A stretch of DNA of 7,304 nucleotides, taken from positions 1-7,304 of the forward strand of contig JADFOP010000062.1 in NCBI GenBank assembly GCA_022562795.1, read 5' to 3'. Every line of letters begins with the position of its first letter. The stretch's first letter is position 1. The position numbers and the translations under genes were made by a program. Below the pieces are notes generated by a model. The model was not told the origin of the DNA. It saw nothing but the letters and a program-made list of their open reading frames with translations, and made no database searches. Source of the DNA: Nitrospinota bacterium (GTDB lineage Bacteria; JADFOP01). Shown here piece after piece: positions 1-7,133 of this stretch.

Positions 1-198
1 CTTCCTCTTCTTAGTCGACCCGGGCTTCGGGATCTCCACCCTCCGTACGGGCTTGAAGCGATAGCTGCCGGCGCCAAGCTTGTCGTGGATCAGGTCGAGG
101 TACTCCTCGGCCCGCTCCGCGAAGGCTTCCACCGTCATCTGGTCTATTCCGGCTGCCCCGGCATTGCTCTTCACTGACTGCCATGCCCGGTGCAGTCG
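1..198 (-). pseudogene. Group II intron-type reverse transcriptase, N-terminal fragment running off the window edge
   Basis: This stretch is seen only by translating the minus strand in the frame starting at base 198. It gives 66 codons open to the window edge. The peptide starts RLHRAWQSVKSNAGAAGIDQ, passes through a TVEAF segment and a GSYRFKPVRRVEIPKPG segment, and ends STKKRK. In the family this is the RT0/RT1 region of group II intron-encoded proteins: the N-x-G-A-x-G-x-D signature, then the L-x-x-G-x-Y-x-x-x-P-V-R-R-V-x-I-P-K-P-G block that normally runs into RPLGIP or KLGIP. The catalytic YADD, maturase and endonuclease domains would lie beyond the edge. There is no start codon or ribosome site of its own. 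The preceding VMERVYDRG lies in the hemH frame and also resembles the usual lead-in of these proteins; removing one G from the G6 run at 199-204 would join the two. It could be a relic, part of a longer gene cut by the window, or the product of an assembly join. The family call is firm; its status is not. Confidence 0.8.
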
Positions 199-829
199 CC
201 CCCCGGTCGTAGACCCGCTCCATCACTCCTTCGATAGTCTCGAGCAACTGGGCTTCGTAGGGCGAGCCGGCGGCCACCGAGACCGGTAGGCTGTGGGCGG
301 TGAAGATGAGGGTGGCCCGGGCCTGCCCGTCGACGGGGACGGCCTCCCACGCCTCTTTAACCGAGTCGGCCCAGGCATCCAAGAAGGAAGGGTTAGTGTG
401 CCAGCCCTCGACGACGACAATCTCGGGCGGCTCGCGCAACGAATCAGCGGCCTCGACGAGGGCCCTGCGGTAGGCGTCGGTCCAGGTATGGGGAGACACG
501 GTCAGGCCCACAAGACGGCTGCAACCTTTCCCGACCAACGAACTGACGGCCTCAGAGATGAACGGCTCGCTGTGGCGCATCCCAACGGCCGCCGGCCAGG
601 GACGCCCCGCATCGGCCAGGCGGCGCTCGAGGGACTCAGCCTGCCTACGTGTGATAGCCGTTATCGGCGAGCCGCCGCCGATGGCCCGGTAGCGCTCGGT
701 AATCTCTTCGAGGTGCTCGTCGGAAATCCACCCCTTGCCCAAAATGTCATCGAGGAAGGCGGGAATCTCTTCCAGGCGCTCAGGCCCCCCGTAGGCCATC
801 AGCACAACACCCGTCGCTTGGTGGACCAT
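11..829 (-). CDS. hemH: Ferrochelatase with its C-terminal third replaced (hybrid, probably inactive)
   Basis: Ferrochelatase inserts Fe2+ into protoporphyrin IX (or coproporphyrin III in some lineages), the last or near-last step of haem synthesis. Family hallmarks are visible in residues 1-200: VVLMAYGGP at 8-15, RYRAIGGGSP at 46-55, VGMRH at 82-86, LTVSPH at 109-114 and FTAHSLP at 176-182 with catalytic His179, then PYEAQL at 190-195. Normal enzymes run to about 310-340 residues and continue with a W-x-x-x-x-QS segment, a catalytic Glu and a GFxxDHxETLxD-like block. None of these is present. Residues from about 211 to the stop at 272 are Arg/Gly/Pro-rich and resemble nothing in the family, because they are an out-of-frame reading of the reverse-transcriptase fragment. 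The start is secure: the ATG directly abuts the hemE TAA, giving coupled translation without a clear Shine-Dalgarno site. As read, the product lacks half of the active site. The alternative is an intact hemH mis-joined in assembly. Confidence 0.85.
   Translation of the reverse strand: MVHQATGVVLMAYGGPERLEEIPAFLDDILGKGWISDEHLEEITERYRAIGGGSPITAITRRQAESLERRLADAGRPWPAAVGMRHSEPFISEAVSSLVGKGCSRLVGLTVSPHTWTDAYRRALVEAADSLREPPEIVVVEGWHTNPSFLDAWADSVKEAWEAVPVDGQARATLIFTAHSLPVSVAAGSPYEAQLLETIEGVMERVYDRGATAPGMAVSEEQCRGSRNRPDDGGSLRGAGRGVPRPDPRQAWRRQLSLQARTEGGDPEARVD
199..235 (-). other. Junction between hemH and reverse-transcriptase sequence, with G6 run
   Basis: Ferrochelatase similarity fades after the LLETIEG segment (residues 195-201). 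The next residues, VMERVYDRG, read well as the lead-in of a group II intron reverse transcriptase. Bases 204-199 of the minus strand are a run of six G. Past that run the hemH frame turns to nonsense while the next frame continues the RT as RLHRAWQS. So the changeover probably lies near 225-235, followed by an apparent one-base frameshift at the homopolymer. No ribozyme sequence, target-site duplication or insertion-sequence end could be recognised at the join. Confidence 0.55.
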
Positions 830-1861
830 TTAGCGTTGAGAGAGCTCGTGGACCATATCGACGAGGGCCGCGACCGACTCGACTGGCGTCGTGGGCAGCA
901 CCCCATGGCCCAGATTGAAAATGTGGCCCGGCCGTCCGGCGGCGGCCTTCAATATGGCTTCCACCTGGCCCCTGAGGGCGCTCGTTGGGGCGTGTAGGGC
1001 AACGGGGTCGAGGTTGCCTTGGACGGCCACCTCAGCTGGGCCGAGACGCTCCCAGGCTTCGCCGAGCGAGACGCGCCAGTCCAAGCCGATGACATCGCTT
1101 CCGGCCTCGCGCATTAGATCGAGCAGGGTCGCCGTGCCCGTGCCGAAGTGGATGACGGGGACCCCGGGGGTGAGGCCTGCGATGACGGCCTTCGAGTATG
1201 GAAGGACGTAGCGGGCGTAGTCGGACGGGCTAAGGCAGCCGACCCAACTGTCGAAGAGCTGGACGGCATCGACCCCGGCGGCGATCTGCGCGTTGAGGTA
1301 AGCGGAGACAACCGTCGCGAATTTACCCATCAAGGTATCCCAGGCCTCAGGGGCGCCGTACATGATGCGCTTCGTCTCCAAATAATGGCGCGAGGCGCCC
1401 CCCTCGATCAGGTAGCTCGCAAGGGTGAAGGGCGCGCCGGCAAAGCCGATCAGCGGAGTCTTTCCGTCCAGCTCGGCCTGCACCAGACCGATTGCCTCCA
1501 GGACGAAGGGAAGGTCGGCCTCTGGCTCGACGGGCCTCAGCCGGTCCACGTCGGCCGCCGTCCGGACGGGGTTGTGGATGACTGGGCCTTCTCCCGCGGT
1601 GAACTCAAGGTCGGCGCCCATCGGCTCCAGTGGCAATAGAATGTCAGCGAAAATGATGGCCGCGTCCAGGTCGAACCGCTCCAGCGGCTGGAGGGTCACC
1701 TCGGCGGCCAGCTCCGGGGTCTTGCACAAAGTGAGAAAGGGTGTGCTCTTGCGGATCTCCCGGTACTCTGCCATATATCGGCCCGCCTGGCGCATAATCC
1801 AGATGGGCGTATACGGGGTCGGCTCCCGGCGGCAGGCCTTGAGGAAGATGTCGTGTTCCAT
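830..1861 (-). CDS. hemE: Uroporphyrinogen decarboxylase
   Basis: Cytoplasmic, cofactor-free enzyme that removes four carboxyl groups from uroporphyrinogen III to give coproporphyrinogen III. With the start at 1861 the protein has 343 residues, the usual length, and looks complete. Signatures in order: WIMRQAGRYMAEYR at 21-34 (substrate-binding Arg24), IIFADILLP at 69-77 with the essential Asp73, GFAGAPFTLASYLIEGG at 139-155 with Tyr150, QLFDSWVG at 201-208 with Ser206, HFGTGT at 238-243, GLDWRVSL at 259-266, QGNLDP at 281-286 and FNLGHG at 315-320 with His319. An in-frame ATG at 1912 would add 17 residues unlike the family N-terminus (MEHDIFLKAC is typical). A candidate promoter whose -10 overlaps that upstream ATG also favours 1861. 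Neither start has a strong Shine-Dalgarno site. It is followed without a gap by hemH, so the two form a haem operon. Confidence 0.96.
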   Translation of the reverse strand: MEHDIFLKACRREPTPYTPIWIMRQAGRYMAEYREIRKSTPFLTLCKTPELAAEVTLQPLERFDLDAAIIFADILLPLEPMGADLEFTAGEGPVIHNPVRTAADVDRLRPVEPEADLPFVLEAIGLVQAELDGKTPLIGFAGAPFTLASYLIEGGASRHYLETKRIMYGAPEAWDTLMGKFATVVSAYLNAQIAAGVDAVQLFDSWVGCLSPSDYARYVLPYSKAVIAGLTPGVPVIHFGTGTATLLDLMREAGSDVIGLDWRVSLGEAWERLGPAEVAVQGNLDPVALHAPTSALRGQVEAILKAAAGRPGHIFNLGHGVLPTTPVESVAALVDMVHELSQR

Positions 1862-1910
1862 CGGAGACTGGTCCGTTTGTAGGATTGACGAAGGGCTCCC
1901 AAACGCCGCC

Positions 1911-1940
1911 ATCTTACCCTGGGGAGCCTTTTAATGTCAA
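1911..1940 (-). promoter_or_regulatory. Candidate sigma70 promoter for hemE-hemH
   Basis: On the minus strand a perfect TTGACA lies at 1940-1935. It is followed after 18 nt by TAAGAT at 1916-1911, which matches four of six bases of the -10 consensus. Transcription would begin near 1905, leaving a leader of about 45 nt before the ATG at 1861 and excluding the ATG at 1912. The -35 is strong, the -10 mediocre and the spacing one longer than ideal. Confidence 0.42.
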
Positions 1941-2031: not shown

Positions 2032-2559
2032 ATGGACGATCTCGCCGCCTACACCGGCATGCGGCTGGCCTACTACGAGGAGAAGTTTTCAGGCTTCGAC
2101 CCGGCCGACGGCCTGCTGGTCATCAGTCTAATCCGCACCCAGGACGTCTACGTCCGGGCGCGTGAGGCATACCTCGCCCGCTACGGCCTTACCGGCTCGA
2201 CCCTCAACGTCCTCATGTTCCTCGACAGCACCCCCGAAGAACGCCTGCCGATGCACACCATCAGCGAAAACCTTCTGGTCTCGAGGGCCAATATCACGGG
2301 CCTCATCGACAGCCTTGAGAAGCGAGGCTATGTCCGCCGCCGGCCCGACCGAGACGACCGGCGGGTCGTTCACGCGGAGATTACCGAAGAGGGGAGGGCC
2401 GTGCTCCACGAGCTTTTACCGGGCCACTTCCGGGCCGTCGAGGCCATGCTGGAGGGCTTCAGCCCGGAGGAGAAGGCTACCCTGGTGGAGCTCTTCTCCC
2501 GTGTGCGGGACGGGGTCGCCAACGGCTACATCCAGGCCGCCCGCGGCTTCGAGGAGTGA
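2032..2559 (+). CDS. MarR-family transcriptional regulator
   Basis: A 175-residue winged helix-turn-helix protein, expected to work as a homodimer. The N-terminal helices (about 25-65) and C-terminal helices (about 122-170) would form the dimer interface. The recognition helix lies in SENLLVSRANITGLIDSLEK (78-97), followed by RGYVRR and a wing with the family D-x-R-x-x-x-V pattern (DRDDRRVVHAEITEEG, 106-121). The N-terminus, with about 25 residues before the first dimerisation helix, is a little longer than in minimal MarR proteins. The start is set by AGGAGA at 2020-2025, seven bases before ATG and directly downstream of a strong promoter. It is the first gene of an operon with the RND adaptor and permease, so it most likely represses that operon and is released by a small ligand, as MexR and similar regulators do. 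The ligand cannot be read from the sequence. Confidence 0.93.
   Translation: MDDLAAYTGMRLAYYEEKFSGFDPADGLLVISLIRTQDVYVRAREAYLARYGLTGSTLNVLMFLDSTPEERLPMHTISENLLVSRANITGLIDSLEKRGYVRRRPDRDDRRVVHAEITEEGRAVLHELLPGHFRAVEAMLEGFSPEEKATLVELFSRVRDGVANGYIQAARGFEE
2551..2556 (+). promoter_or_regulatory. Ribosome binding site for the adaptor, inside the end of marR
   Basis: GAGGAG encodes the last two Glu codons of the MarR protein and lies six bases before the GTG at 2563. It fixes that GTG as the adaptor start and implies translational coupling across the 3-nt gap after the TGA. Confidence 0.75.
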
Positions 2560-2562
2560 GCC

Positions 2563-3681
2563 GTGCGCGTACGGTGGACCTTAGTCCGTCTCCTCACCGC
2601 CCTTCTTTTGAGTGGGCTGGGCCTTCCTGCGCCAGCCGCCGCGCAGGGCCGAGGCCCAGCGCCCGTCGTGGTGGCCCCCGTAGAGACGAGGACCCTGGAG
2701 GCGATCGTCACCCTGGTCGGCACCGTCCATCCCGCCACCCGTAGCCTCATCGCCAGCGAGACGGCAGGCCTCGTCATCTGCTGCCCCGTGGAGGAGGGCG
2801 AGACGGTCAGAAGGGGTCAGCTCCTGGCCCAGCTGCGCAGGGTGCCTACGGAGATAAAGCTTCGCGAGGCCCGAGCCGCTTGGCAGCGGGCAAAGGCCGA
2901 ACATACCAACGCTCAGCGAGAGGCGGCTCGACGCGAGGACCTCTACGAGAGGCAGGTTATTGCAATCGAGCAGTACCAGTCCGCCACCACTGCCGTTCAG
3001 GCGGCCGCCGAGCGGGTGGCCGAAGCGCAGGCGGTCATGGCCCGCCTGGAAGACCAGTTAGCGCAAAGCTCGATCACTGCCCCGTTTCCCGGCGTGGTGG
3101 TCAAGGAGCACACCGAGGTGGGCCAGTGGCTCGACCAGGGCGACCCGGTAGTGGAGCTGATCGACCTCTCGACGGTCGAGGTCACCGTGCCCGTGCCCGA
3201 GCGCTACATCGCTGAGGTCCGCAGTGGCGAGGCCGCCTCTTTGAGCCTTGACGCCCTGCCCGGCCGCTCGTTTGCCGGCCGAGTCGTCCATATCATCCCG
3301 CAGGCCGACGCTTCCAGCCGCACATTCCCCGTCAAAGTCGAGGTTGCCAACCCCGACGGGCTCATCAAGAGCGGCATGTTCGCCCGGGTCACCCTCCCGG
3401 TCGGGAGGGCACGGCGAGCCATCGTGGTACCCAAAGACGCCCTGGTGAGCCGCGGCCCGGTCTCCCTCCTCTTCGTCGTGAACGACGGCGTGGCCCACCA
3501 GGTGGCCGTCAAAAGGGGCCAGGCCACGGGGGCCTGGGTGGCCGTCGAGGGCCCGGTGGAGGAAGGCCAGCTCGTCGTCATCCGCGGTAACGAGCGGCTC
3601 CGCGACGGCATGCCGGTGACCGTCGTGCCGCCCGATAAAGCTGGGGCCACAGCCGGAGACAGAGCCCGAGGGCCATCGTGA
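2563..3681 (+). CDS. RND efflux periplasmic adaptor (membrane fusion protein, HlyD/AcrA type)
   Basis: A 372-residue adaptor that would bridge the inner-membrane RND pump and an outer-membrane channel. An N-terminal signal peptide is visible: basic start, hydrophobic LLTALLLSGLGL at 10-21 and an AAAQ cleavage site near 27-28. No lipobox Cys is present, so it is a free periplasmic protein. Domain order: first lipoyl half (about 61-95, with PVEEGETVRRGQLLAQL), alpha-helical hairpin rich in Ala/Arg/Glu (about 97-168), second lipoyl half (ITAPFPGVV and VGQWLDQGDPVVELID, 171-202), beta-barrel (about 205-280, with the SGMFARVTLP motif at 270-279) and membrane-proximal domain (about 285-355, with VVPKDAL at 288-294). 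The length is typical. The start is GTG, chosen for its ribosome site and signal peptide. Its stop overlaps the permease start by 4 nt. Odd point: adjacent Cys73-Cys74 in the first lipoyl half, where the family usually has small hydrophobic residues. Confidence 0.93.
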   Translation: MRVRWTLVRLLTALLLSGLGLPAPAAAQGRGPAPVVVAPVETRTLEAIVTLVGTVHPATRSLIASETAGLVICCPVEEGETVRRGQLLAQLRRVPTEIKLREARAAWQRAKAEHTNAQREAARREDLYERQVIAIEQYQSATTAVQAAAERVAEAQAVMARLEDQLAQSSITAPFPGVVVKEHTEVGQWLDQGDPVVELIDLSTVEVTVPVPERYIAEVRSGEAASLSLDALPGRSFAGRVVHIIPQADASSRTFPVKVEVANPDGLIKSGMFARVTLPVGRARRAIVVPKDALVSRGPVSLLFVVNDGVAHQVAVKRGQATGAWVAVEGPVEEGQLVVIRGNERLRDGMPVTVVPPDKAGATAGDRARGPS

Positions 3682-6600
3682 AGCTCATCGAGCGGTCCAT
3701 CCGTTATCCAGTCTCTGTAACAGTCGGGGTCCTGCTCGTGGCCCTCTTCGGGCTGGTGGCCCTGATGCGCATCCCCGTCCAACTCACACCCACCGTCGAG
3801 AAGCCTGAGATCACCGTCGAGACCCGTTGGCCGGGCGCCAGCCCCCAGGAGGTGGAGCGGGAGATCGTCGAGGAGCAGGAGGAGCAGCTAAAAAGTGTGG
3901 AGGGCTTAAGGCGGCTCACCAGCGAGAGCATGGACGGCCGGGGCCGGGTCGTCTTGGAGTTCGAGGTGGGCAGCGACATGAACGCTAACCTCCTGAAAGT
4001 CGCCAATAAGCTAAACCAGGTTCCCTCCTACCCCGATGAGGCCGACGAGCCGGTTATATCTAGCGTCAACATCCGTGGCAACGCCATCGCCTGGTTCATC
4101 CTCAAGCCCAAACCTGGAAACCCCGTGAACATCTACCATCTGCGGGACTTTGCGGATGACTTCGTCAAACCACTCATAGAGCGGGTGTCCGGAGTGGCCC
4201 GGAGCAACATCTACGGCGGCCAGGAGCGGGAGCTTAGGGTGGTGGTCGACCCCGAGGCCCTTGCGGCGCGGAACGTCACCCTCCTCCAGGTTGCCACGGC
4301 CCTGGATGAAGAAAACAGGAACATCTCGGCGGGTGACTTTGACGAGGGCAAGCGCCGCTACATCGTCCGCACGACAGGCGAGTTCCAATCCCCCGAGGAC
4401 GTGGCCAATGTCATCATCGCCCGCCACAACGGCAGCGCAGTCTACGTTAGAGACGTGGCCCGGGTGGAGCTAGGCTTCAAGGACGCCGACTTCGCCGTGC
4501 GCCACATGGGTGAGCCGGCCATCGCGCTCAACGCTCTTCGGACGACGGGGAGCAACGTGCTTGAGGTCATGAAAGGCCTCCACCAGGCCGTAGAGGAGCT
4601 CAACGAGGGCATTCTGGCCGACCGCAACCTCTCCCTCCAGCAGGTCTACGACGAGACGGACTACATTAAGAGCGCTATCTCGCTGGTGTCGTACAACCTC
4701 TTGATCGGCGGCATCCTGGCTATCCTGGTGCTCCTGCTCTTCCTGCGAAGCGCCTCGTCCACCTTCATCATCGCGATGGCCATCCCCGTCAGTGTGGTCG
4801 GCACTTTCTTCGCCCTCTGGTTCGTGGGCCGGAACCTCAATGTAGTCAGCCTTGCGGGTATGGCCTTCGCCGTGGGCATGGTGGTAGACAACTCCATCGT
4901 CGTGTTGGAGAACATCTACCGTCACCTCCAGCTCGGCAAGAGCCGTCGCCAGGCGGCCTACGACGGGGCCGTCGAGGTCTGGGGGGCGGTCTTCGCCTCC
5001 ACCATGACCACCGTGGCGGTCTTCCTGCCCATCATTTTCGTAAAGGAGGAGGCGGGCCAGCTATTCCGCGACATCGCCATAGCCATCTCCTGCGGTGTTG
5101 GGCTCTCCCTCATCGTCGCCGTCACCGTCATCCCGAGCCTCTCGAACAAAATTCTGACCACCACCGGGAAAGAGGACGCCGCGCCCACGAGGCGCCGCCG
5201 CGCTCTCAGGGGCCTGGCCAGCTTCTTCCAGGCAGCCACCGATCTCTTCGCCGGCTTCATCTACTGGCTCTGTGGGAGGCGCCTGGCAAGCTTGGTCGTC
5301 ATCGTGGGCCTCACAGTCGCCTCCCTCGGAGGCTCGTGGCTGCTGATGCCCGACACGGAGTATCTGCCGACGGGCAACCGCAACCTCGTCATAGGAGTCC
5401 TCCTGCCGCCGCCGGGGTACAACCTGGAGGAGCTTACCGAGATTGGCAAGCTCATCGAGTCGCGCCTCTCCCCGTACTGGTCTGACGGGGCGGGCGACCT
5501 CGACGGGCCGGGCATCGAAAACTTCTTCTACGTGGCCCGCGGCCGAAGTGTTTTCATGGGGGCTGTAGCTTCCGATCCGCGCCGGGCCCGGGAGCTTATA
5601 CCCCTCATGCGGAGCTCCTTCGAGGGGATTCCCGGCATGATCGCCATAGTCACCCAGACGAGCCTCTTTCGTCGGGCCCTCGGCGAGGGGCGCAACATCG
5701 ATGTCGAGATAACCGGCCCCGAGCTGGGGCGGCTCGTCAGCCTCGGCGGGCGGCTCTTCGGGGGGATTATGCAGCTGCTCCCGCCGGGCACGCAGGCCCG
5801 GCCCATCCCGAGCCTCGACCTCGGCAACCCAGAGGTCCGGGTCATCCCCGACCGGGAGCGTGCGGCCGAGCTCCAGCTATCCAGCCGTGAGATCGGCTTC
5901 ATCGTCAACGCCCTGGTGGACGGGGCCAAAGTCAGCGACTACCAGCACGAGGGGGGCGAGATTGACCTCACCCTTAAGGGCGAGGACCGCTTCGCCCGCC
6001 GAACCCAGGATCTGGCCCTGCTCCCCATCCGCACCCCTACGGGGCAAATCGTAAGCCTCGGCAGCGTGGCCGACGTGAGGGTCGTTACAGGGCCCGAGCA
6101 GATAAACCGCATCGAGCGGCAGCGGGCCATCACTTTGCAGGTCATCCCGCCTGTCACCATGGCCCTGGAGACGGCGATGCGCCAGATTGAGGAGGGGCTC
6201 TTAGCGCCGCTTCGCGAGGAGGGGACGCTCGGCCGGCTATACAACATCCGGCTCGCCGGGACCGCCGACAAGCTCACCCTTACCCGGAGGTCCCTCCAGT
6301 GGAACTTCATCCTGGCGATCATCATCACCTATCTCCTCATGGCGAGCCTATTCGAGAGCTTTCTCTACCCCTTCGTCATCATGTTCAGCGTGCCGCTGGC
6401 CTCGCTCGGGGGGTTTTTGGGCCTCCGGGTTGTCAACGCCACAATCTCATACCAGGCCCTCGACATCATCACAATGCTCGGCTTCGTCATCCTCGTAGGC
6501 ATCGTGGTGAACAACGCCATCCTCATAGTCCATCAAGCCCTGAACCACATGCGGGACGAGGGGATGGAGCCCCGCGAGGCCGTCCGCGAGTCGGTCCGAA

Positions 6601-6842
6601 ACCGCGTCAGGCCCATCTTCATGAGCACGACGACGAGCGTCTTCGGCATGCTCCCTCTCATCCTCTTTCACGGGGCGGGGAGCGAGCTATACCGGGGCCT
6701 CGGCAGCGTCGTGGTAGGAGGGCTCGTCCTTTCGACCATCTTCACCCTGGTCCTGGTCCCCACCCTCTTTTACCTCGCGCTCTCGGCCCGCCGGGCCGTG
6801 GTGGAGCGGCTCACCTCGGGCCGTGGCGCCCCGGCCGCCTGA
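3678..6842 (+). CDS. RND-family efflux permease (HAE1/AcrB-like)
   Basis: An inner-membrane trimeric proton-driven pump of 1054 residues, full length for the family. TM1 is at about 10-30. The first large periplasmic loop is about 31-335. TM2-TM6 fall at about 341-488. A basic linker follows (RRRR at 505-508), then TM7 at about 537-557. The second periplasmic loop is about 558-870, and TM8-TM12 lie at about 873-1034. Family motifs include ETRWPGASPQEVE at 48-60, VVDNSIVVLENI in TM4 (402-413), GIVVNNAILIV in TM10 (941-951) and RVRPIFMS at 976-983. By alignment from memory to AcrB, Asp404 matches Asp407, but Asn405 replaces Asp408 and Asn945 replaces Lys940; Arg976 and Ser983 match Arg971 and Thr978. 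The motifs fit drug/hydrophobe RND pumps better than metal pumps, but the substrate is unknown. The start is GTG in a GTGA overlap with the adaptor stop, with CGAGGG at 3667-3672 as ribosome site. No TolC-like gene follows. Confidence 0.95.
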   Translation: MKLIERSIRYPVSVTVGVLLVALFGLVALMRIPVQLTPTVEKPEITVETRWPGASPQEVEREIVEEQEEQLKSVEGLRRLTSESMDGRGRVVLEFEVGSDMNANLLKVANKLNQVPSYPDEADEPVISSVNIRGNAIAWFILKPKPGNPVNIYHLRDFADDFVKPLIERVSGVARSNIYGGQERELRVVVDPEALAARNVTLLQVATALDEENRNISAGDFDEGKRRYIVRTTGEFQSPEDVANVIIARHNGSAVYVRDVARVELGFKDADFAVRHMGEPAIALNALRTTGSNVLEVMKGLHQAVEELNEGILADRNLSLQQVYDETDYIKSAISLVSYNLLIGGILAILVLLLFLRSASSTFIIAMAIPVSVVGTFFALWFVGRNLNVVSLAGMAFAVGMVVDNSIVVLENIYRHLQLGKSRRQAAYDGAVEVWGAVFASTMTTVAVFLPIIFVKEEAGQLFRDIAIAISCGVGLSLIVAVTVIPSLSNKILTTTGKEDAAPTRRRRALRGLASFFQAATDLFAGFIYWLCGRRLASLVVIVGLTVASLGGSWLLMPDTEYLPTGNRNLVIGVLLPPPGYNLEELTEIGKLIESRLSPYWSDGAGDLDGPGIENFFYVARGRSVFMGAVASDPRRARELIPLMRSSFEGIPGMIAIVTQTSLFRRALGEGRNIDVEITGPELGRLVSLGGRLFGGIMQLLPPGTQARPIPSLDLGNPEVRVIPDRERAAELQLSSREIGFIVNALVDGAKVSDYQHEGGEIDLTLKGEDRFARRTQDLALLPIRTPTGQIVSLGSVADVRVVTGPEQINRIERQRAITLQVIPPVTMALETAMRQIEEGLLAPLREEGTLGRLYNIRLAGTADKLTLTRRSLQWNFILAIIITYLLMASLFESFLYPFVIMFSVPLASLGGFLGLRVVNATISYQALDIITMLGFVILVGIVVNNAILIVHQALNHMRDEGMEPREAVRESVRNRVRPIFMSTTTSVFGMLPLILFHGAGSELYRGLGSVVVGGLVLSTIFTLVLVPTLFYLALSARRAVVERLTSGRGAPAA

Positions 6843-7033: not shown

Positions 7034-7133
7034 CCCTGTCCTAAAGGCCGGACACCCACAAGGGGCGTCCCTACATGGTCTTGTGCCCGTGTAGGGACAG
7101 GGTTTACCCTGTCCGCAAAGAAAACCCGGACAG
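7034..7133. repeat. Nested inverted-repeat cluster (candidate dispersed palindromic element)
   Basis: GTCCCTACA at 7067-7075 pairs with TGTAGGGAC at 7090-7098 (9 bp, 14-nt loop). Overlapping it, GGACAGGG at 7095-7102 pairs with CCCTGTCC at 7107-7114 across TTTA. A second CCCTGTCC lies at 7034-7041, and CGGACAG at 7127-7133 is complementary to CTGTCCG at 7109-7115. Several alternative hairpins are therefore possible. The GTAGGGAC and CCTGTCC vocabulary resembles dispersed intergenic palindromic repeats seen in many large uncultured-bacterial genomes. Whether it is multicopy here cannot be tested in one window. Confidence 0.6.

Follow-up and report, generated by a model that had tools for sequence, protein, structure and literature searches.

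Described relatives of the two genes

The closest described systems for the gene fragments joined in this DNA are ferrochelatase (HemH, Pfam PF00762) and the reverse transcriptases/maturases (RTs) encoded by group II introns (NCBIfam TIGR04416). For hemH, a genome of the same genus is available for comparison (G001, only about 85% complete), in which hemE is followed without a break by a complete hemH (306 aa) and by hemY. Its intact HemH covers PF00762 profile positions 2-313, and the gene name hemY was assigned from amine-oxidoreductase family similarity and from the position after hemH.

Related RTs occur in Desulfobacterota, for example in strain NaphS2. In the relatives compared here (loci L017, L023, L024, and L032), the RTs sit in introns whose D1-D4 RNA starts approximately 640-740 nt upstream of the RT gene. 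The copy at L032 (approximately position 5187; Delta proteobacterium NaphS2) departs from its sister copy at L017 just past the KRKLGIP block and then runs into stop codons. It is apparently truncated, with the break in nearly the same RT region as the contig end described below.

The window and its genome

The window, i.e., the whole stretch of DNA that was analysed, is the entire contig C62 (7,304 bp). It comes from a 2.15 Mb genome assembled in 84 contigs, with an estimated completeness of 97%. The features that bear on the junction are listed in Table 1, together with one feature of a second contig (C76) of the same genome.

Table 1. Features of the hemH-RT junction and of the facing contig tip (window coordinates unless another contig is named).
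Feature	Coordinates	Strand	Evidence
Group II intron reverse transcriptase/maturase, N-terminal fragment (RT0/RT1), cut by contig end	1..204	-	TIGR04416, E 3e-16
G6 run, one base longer than in RT relatives; puts the RT out of the hemH frame	199..204	-	Alignment and translations
Junction zone GTGATGGAGCGGGT; same sequence as in hemH of G001, resembles the starts of RT genes	213..226	-	Alignments
hemH (ferrochelatase), 5' two thirds, residues 1-206	213..829	-	PF00762; blastn to same-genus hemH (PF00762 E 3.6e-46)
hemE (uroporphyrinogen decarboxylase), intact, directly upstream of hemH	830..1912	-	Pfam URO-D, E 9.7e-133
LuxR-type regulator, latter part, truncated	C76 (L044) 3757..4235	opposite to hemY	GerE, E 3.5e-9; Autoind_bind from position 89

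The remainder of the window contains an ordinary efflux operon (2032-6842), in which genes for a MarR regulator, an HlyD-type adaptor, and an AcrB-type RND transporter are intact, consecutive, and overlapping or nearly so. Near the opposite end of the contig, a palindromic repeat, GGGACAGGGTTTACCCTGTCC, is located at 7094-7114. It has 20 copies in the genome with at most one mismatch, compared with none for the reversed control, and looks like a dispersed repeat family whose copies are often paired approximately 100 bp apart.

The hemH fragment

The hemH part belongs to an open reading frame of 272 aa (829..11, minus strand). Residues 6-206 of its product align with positions 2-220 of the 317 in the ferrochelatase profile, including the TAHSLP block of the N-terminal two thirds, and no match is found beyond residue 206. 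At the DNA level, identity to the hemH of G001 is 79.6% as far as window base 213, where the similarity stops. The conserved HVE block and the rest of the C-terminal third are missing from the reading frame and from the whole assembly: a search for the lost end across the genome returned nothing, and the identical query recovered the G001 gene as a positive control. The description of HemH in the first-pass annotation, as canonical up to about residue 200 and lacking its C-terminal third, is borne out by these results. That annotation had also envisaged another hemH elsewhere in the source genome; a search of the genome for a second ferrochelatase found none.

The RT fragment

A second minus-strand frame runs from approximately base 200 to base 1 (RAWQSVKSNAGAAGIDQMTVEAF...PVRRVEIPKPGSTKKRK; full translation RAWQSVKSNAGAAGIDQMTVEAFAERAEEYLDLIHDKLGAGSYRFKPVRRVEIPKPGSTKKRK), with no stop before the contig end. 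It matches positions 6-66 of the 353 in TIGR04416, which comprise the RT0/RT1 region, and its identity to group II RTs of Desulfobacterota reaches 76%. Judged by profile and alignment, this resemblance is far beyond chance. The earlier proposal that 66 codons in another frame correspond to RT0/RT1 of group II intron proteins therefore holds, and the RT call withstands the test set for it, namely that RT matches should be found. Only the first 60-70 codons are present. The fragment lies at the low end of C62 and is cut at base 1 by the contig end, before the expected place of the YADD catalytic blocks and the maturase domain.

In a profile search, this tip was the sole TIGR04416 match in the window genome, and a second copy of its DNA was not detected there, so that an RT gene that is multicopy in this genome, a possible reading of one of the first-pass options, is without support. 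With an RT query whose first residues were adjusted by hand, no RT was found in the incomplete genome G001 or in G002. Among plasmids, a possible donor gave no DNA match and only protein matches below 60% identity, and the viral contigs searched held no match to the tip. The G+C content of the tip (approximately 62-65%) is in line with the rest of C62, which counts against an artefact.

The join between hemH and the RT

At the junction, HemH reads ETIEGVMERV, and RT genes encode (V)MERV or LERV at this position in the matching frame; the similarity of the RT relatives reaches back to the same place (for example, VMERIYEPRRLRQAWQQVKQNAGAAGIDQM). The two genes therefore have (V)MERV in common, read in the same frame, and the changeover falls within or beside bases 213-226. 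The change of frame comes a few bases past the join, at the G6 run. If the extra base of this run were absent, HemH and the RT would appear fused in frame.

An RT of this family inside a haem gene brings to mind a group II intron that retrohomed into hemH and was then collapsed by the assembler. The window RT does belong to the group II intron proteins, and its relatives are carried by introns with D1-D4 RNA upstream. However, hemH is followed immediately by the first RT codons, no intron RNA separates the two, and group II intron RNA (Rfam) had no match in the window or in C76. A normal intron insertion is unlikely because the intron RNA found upstream of the RT in its relatives, approximately 640-740 nt long, is absent; moreover, the C76 side shows a LuxR-type gene and no intron end. 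Ordinary retrohoming would not produce such a junction, and a collapsed intron is hardly credible.

The facing contig and the 409 bp gap

The hemY orthologue of the window genome (73% identical to that of G001) is located on contig C76 (4,235 bp). In G001 coordinates, C62 leaves the cluster at 2117 and C76 resumes it at 2527, so that 409 bp, from the 3' part of hemH into the 5' part of hemY, are unaccounted for. C76 also runs into unrelated sequence at its tip, where part of a LuxR-type regulator gene is found. The G+C content changes abruptly at approximately 3757, from 63-75% (about 70%) in hemY to 44-54% (about 48%) in the tip. This LuxR piece is the sole Autoind_bind (PF03472) match in the window genome, with no second copy, and Autoind_bind was not detected in G001. 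Among plasmids, it had no DNA match, and its protein matches were weak and mostly alpha- or gammaproteobacterial, with 24-31% identity among the best.

As the breaks in C62 and C76 flank one gap of 409 bp, the two contigs that were due to meet both end in truncated genes unrelated to the cluster. On both sides, the sequence leaves the syntenic relative for unrelated DNA, and a short, defined stretch is missing, which is the arrangement expected of chimeric joins.

The same arrangement would also arise from a real rearrangement, in which a mobile or foreign segment, with the RT fragment at one edge and the LuxR-type gene at the other, replaced approximately 409 bp and inactivated hemH and probably hemY. 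A single deletion would leave unrelated DNA at both edges, as seen on the two contigs, and joins at microhomology happen in genuine recombination too, a point against an artefact. Nevertheless, such an event would cost the organism its only ferrochelatase and truncate hemY, with hemE and the rest intact; the RT and LuxR edge genes are both truncated exactly at the joins; and no other part of the supposed element was recognised among the contigs. This rearrangement is considered improbable. Also improbable is a locus that is real as recorded, in which the segment bounded by the RT and LuxR genes eliminated the 3' part of hemH together with the beginning of hemY and left an organism with the earlier haem-pathway genes and no ferrochelatase.

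A contig-end artefact as the preferred explanation

Very probably, the hemH-RT fusion is a contig-end artefact, and the locus represents a single assembly gap flanked by two chimeric tips. The chromosome would most likely carry hemE-hemH-hemY uninterrupted, like the same-genus relative, with approximately 400 bp across the hemH-hemY boundary left unassembled. On the hemH side, the contig may have been continued into a group II RT gene of different origin via the short common stretch that encodes MERV, and on the hemY side into a LuxR-type gene. Several observations argue for this reading: the RT runs off base 1 of a window that is a whole contig; the only group II RT and the only Autoind_bind matches of the genome are these two tips, and G001 has neither; and the bin carries other foreign-looking DNA (contig C50, 13.8 kb). 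C50 (L058) encodes, at 1-1500, the alpha chain of a ribonucleotide reductase that shares 92% identity with that of the alphaproteobacterium Qipengyuania citrea, compared with 77% for the next match in the collection searched, and is probably a contaminant of the bin. A general pattern of chimeric ends was not established by G+C alone among 39 sampled contig starts (one of them all N).

The first-pass annotation had offered two options, a real disruption of hemH or a chimera at a multicopy RT gene. Its gene calls were right and the chimera is favoured; multiple RT copies in this genome are not supported. The decisive context, outside the window, is C76, which carries hemY and ends in a foreign gene fragment 409 bp farther along the cluster.

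The joins would have been made by the assembler or by a chimeric molecule; sequencing reads would then not support them, and the source DNA would contain a complete hemH. A molecule of the latter kind could have been formed during library preparation or whole-genome amplification, by template switching at the common stretch, and assembled because local coverage was low. This variant of the artefact is listed separately because its remedy differs from that of an assembler join. The short common stretch at the hemH join and the involvement of both sides of one poorly assembled gap suit it; however, its sequence pattern is the same as that of an assembler join, and it is regarded as possible but rather doubtful.

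Implications for users of the record

Since the fusion is most likely an assembly error, the record is no sound evidence for a broken haem gene, and the normal hemE-hemH-hemY order in the same-genus genome indicates that the locus is biologically ordinary. In an automatic annotation, hemH and hemY would appear as truncated or fused genes, a group II RT and a LuxR-type regulator that binds an autoinducer would be assigned to the organism, and haem auxotrophy might be deduced. Each of these conclusions depends on two contig tips, which should be trimmed or flagged.

Comparison with known systems

Compared with ferrochelatases of the PF00762 family, the first 206 residues encoded in the window are approximately 75% identical to the same-genus protein, but the window copy is without the C-terminal third, including the GFVADHVEVLYD block of the relative. 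The likeness to group II intron-encoded RTs of Desulfobacterota (TIGR04416), such as those of strain NaphS2, extends over 63 codons at the amino acid identity given above, and the N-terminal MERVY..RL..AWQ block is common to the window and these relatives. In contrast to those RTs, the window has a frame-shifting base and no upstream intron RNA, and its RT breaks off after the opening codons. The locus as a whole resembles the chimeric contigs of fragmented genome and metagenome assemblies, with an abrupt switch to unrelated sequence near a contig end, a short sequence common to both partners where they join, and a second contig whose break is complementary. It differs from them in that the gap lies within a single gene cluster and each of its two tips carries a different unrelated gene.
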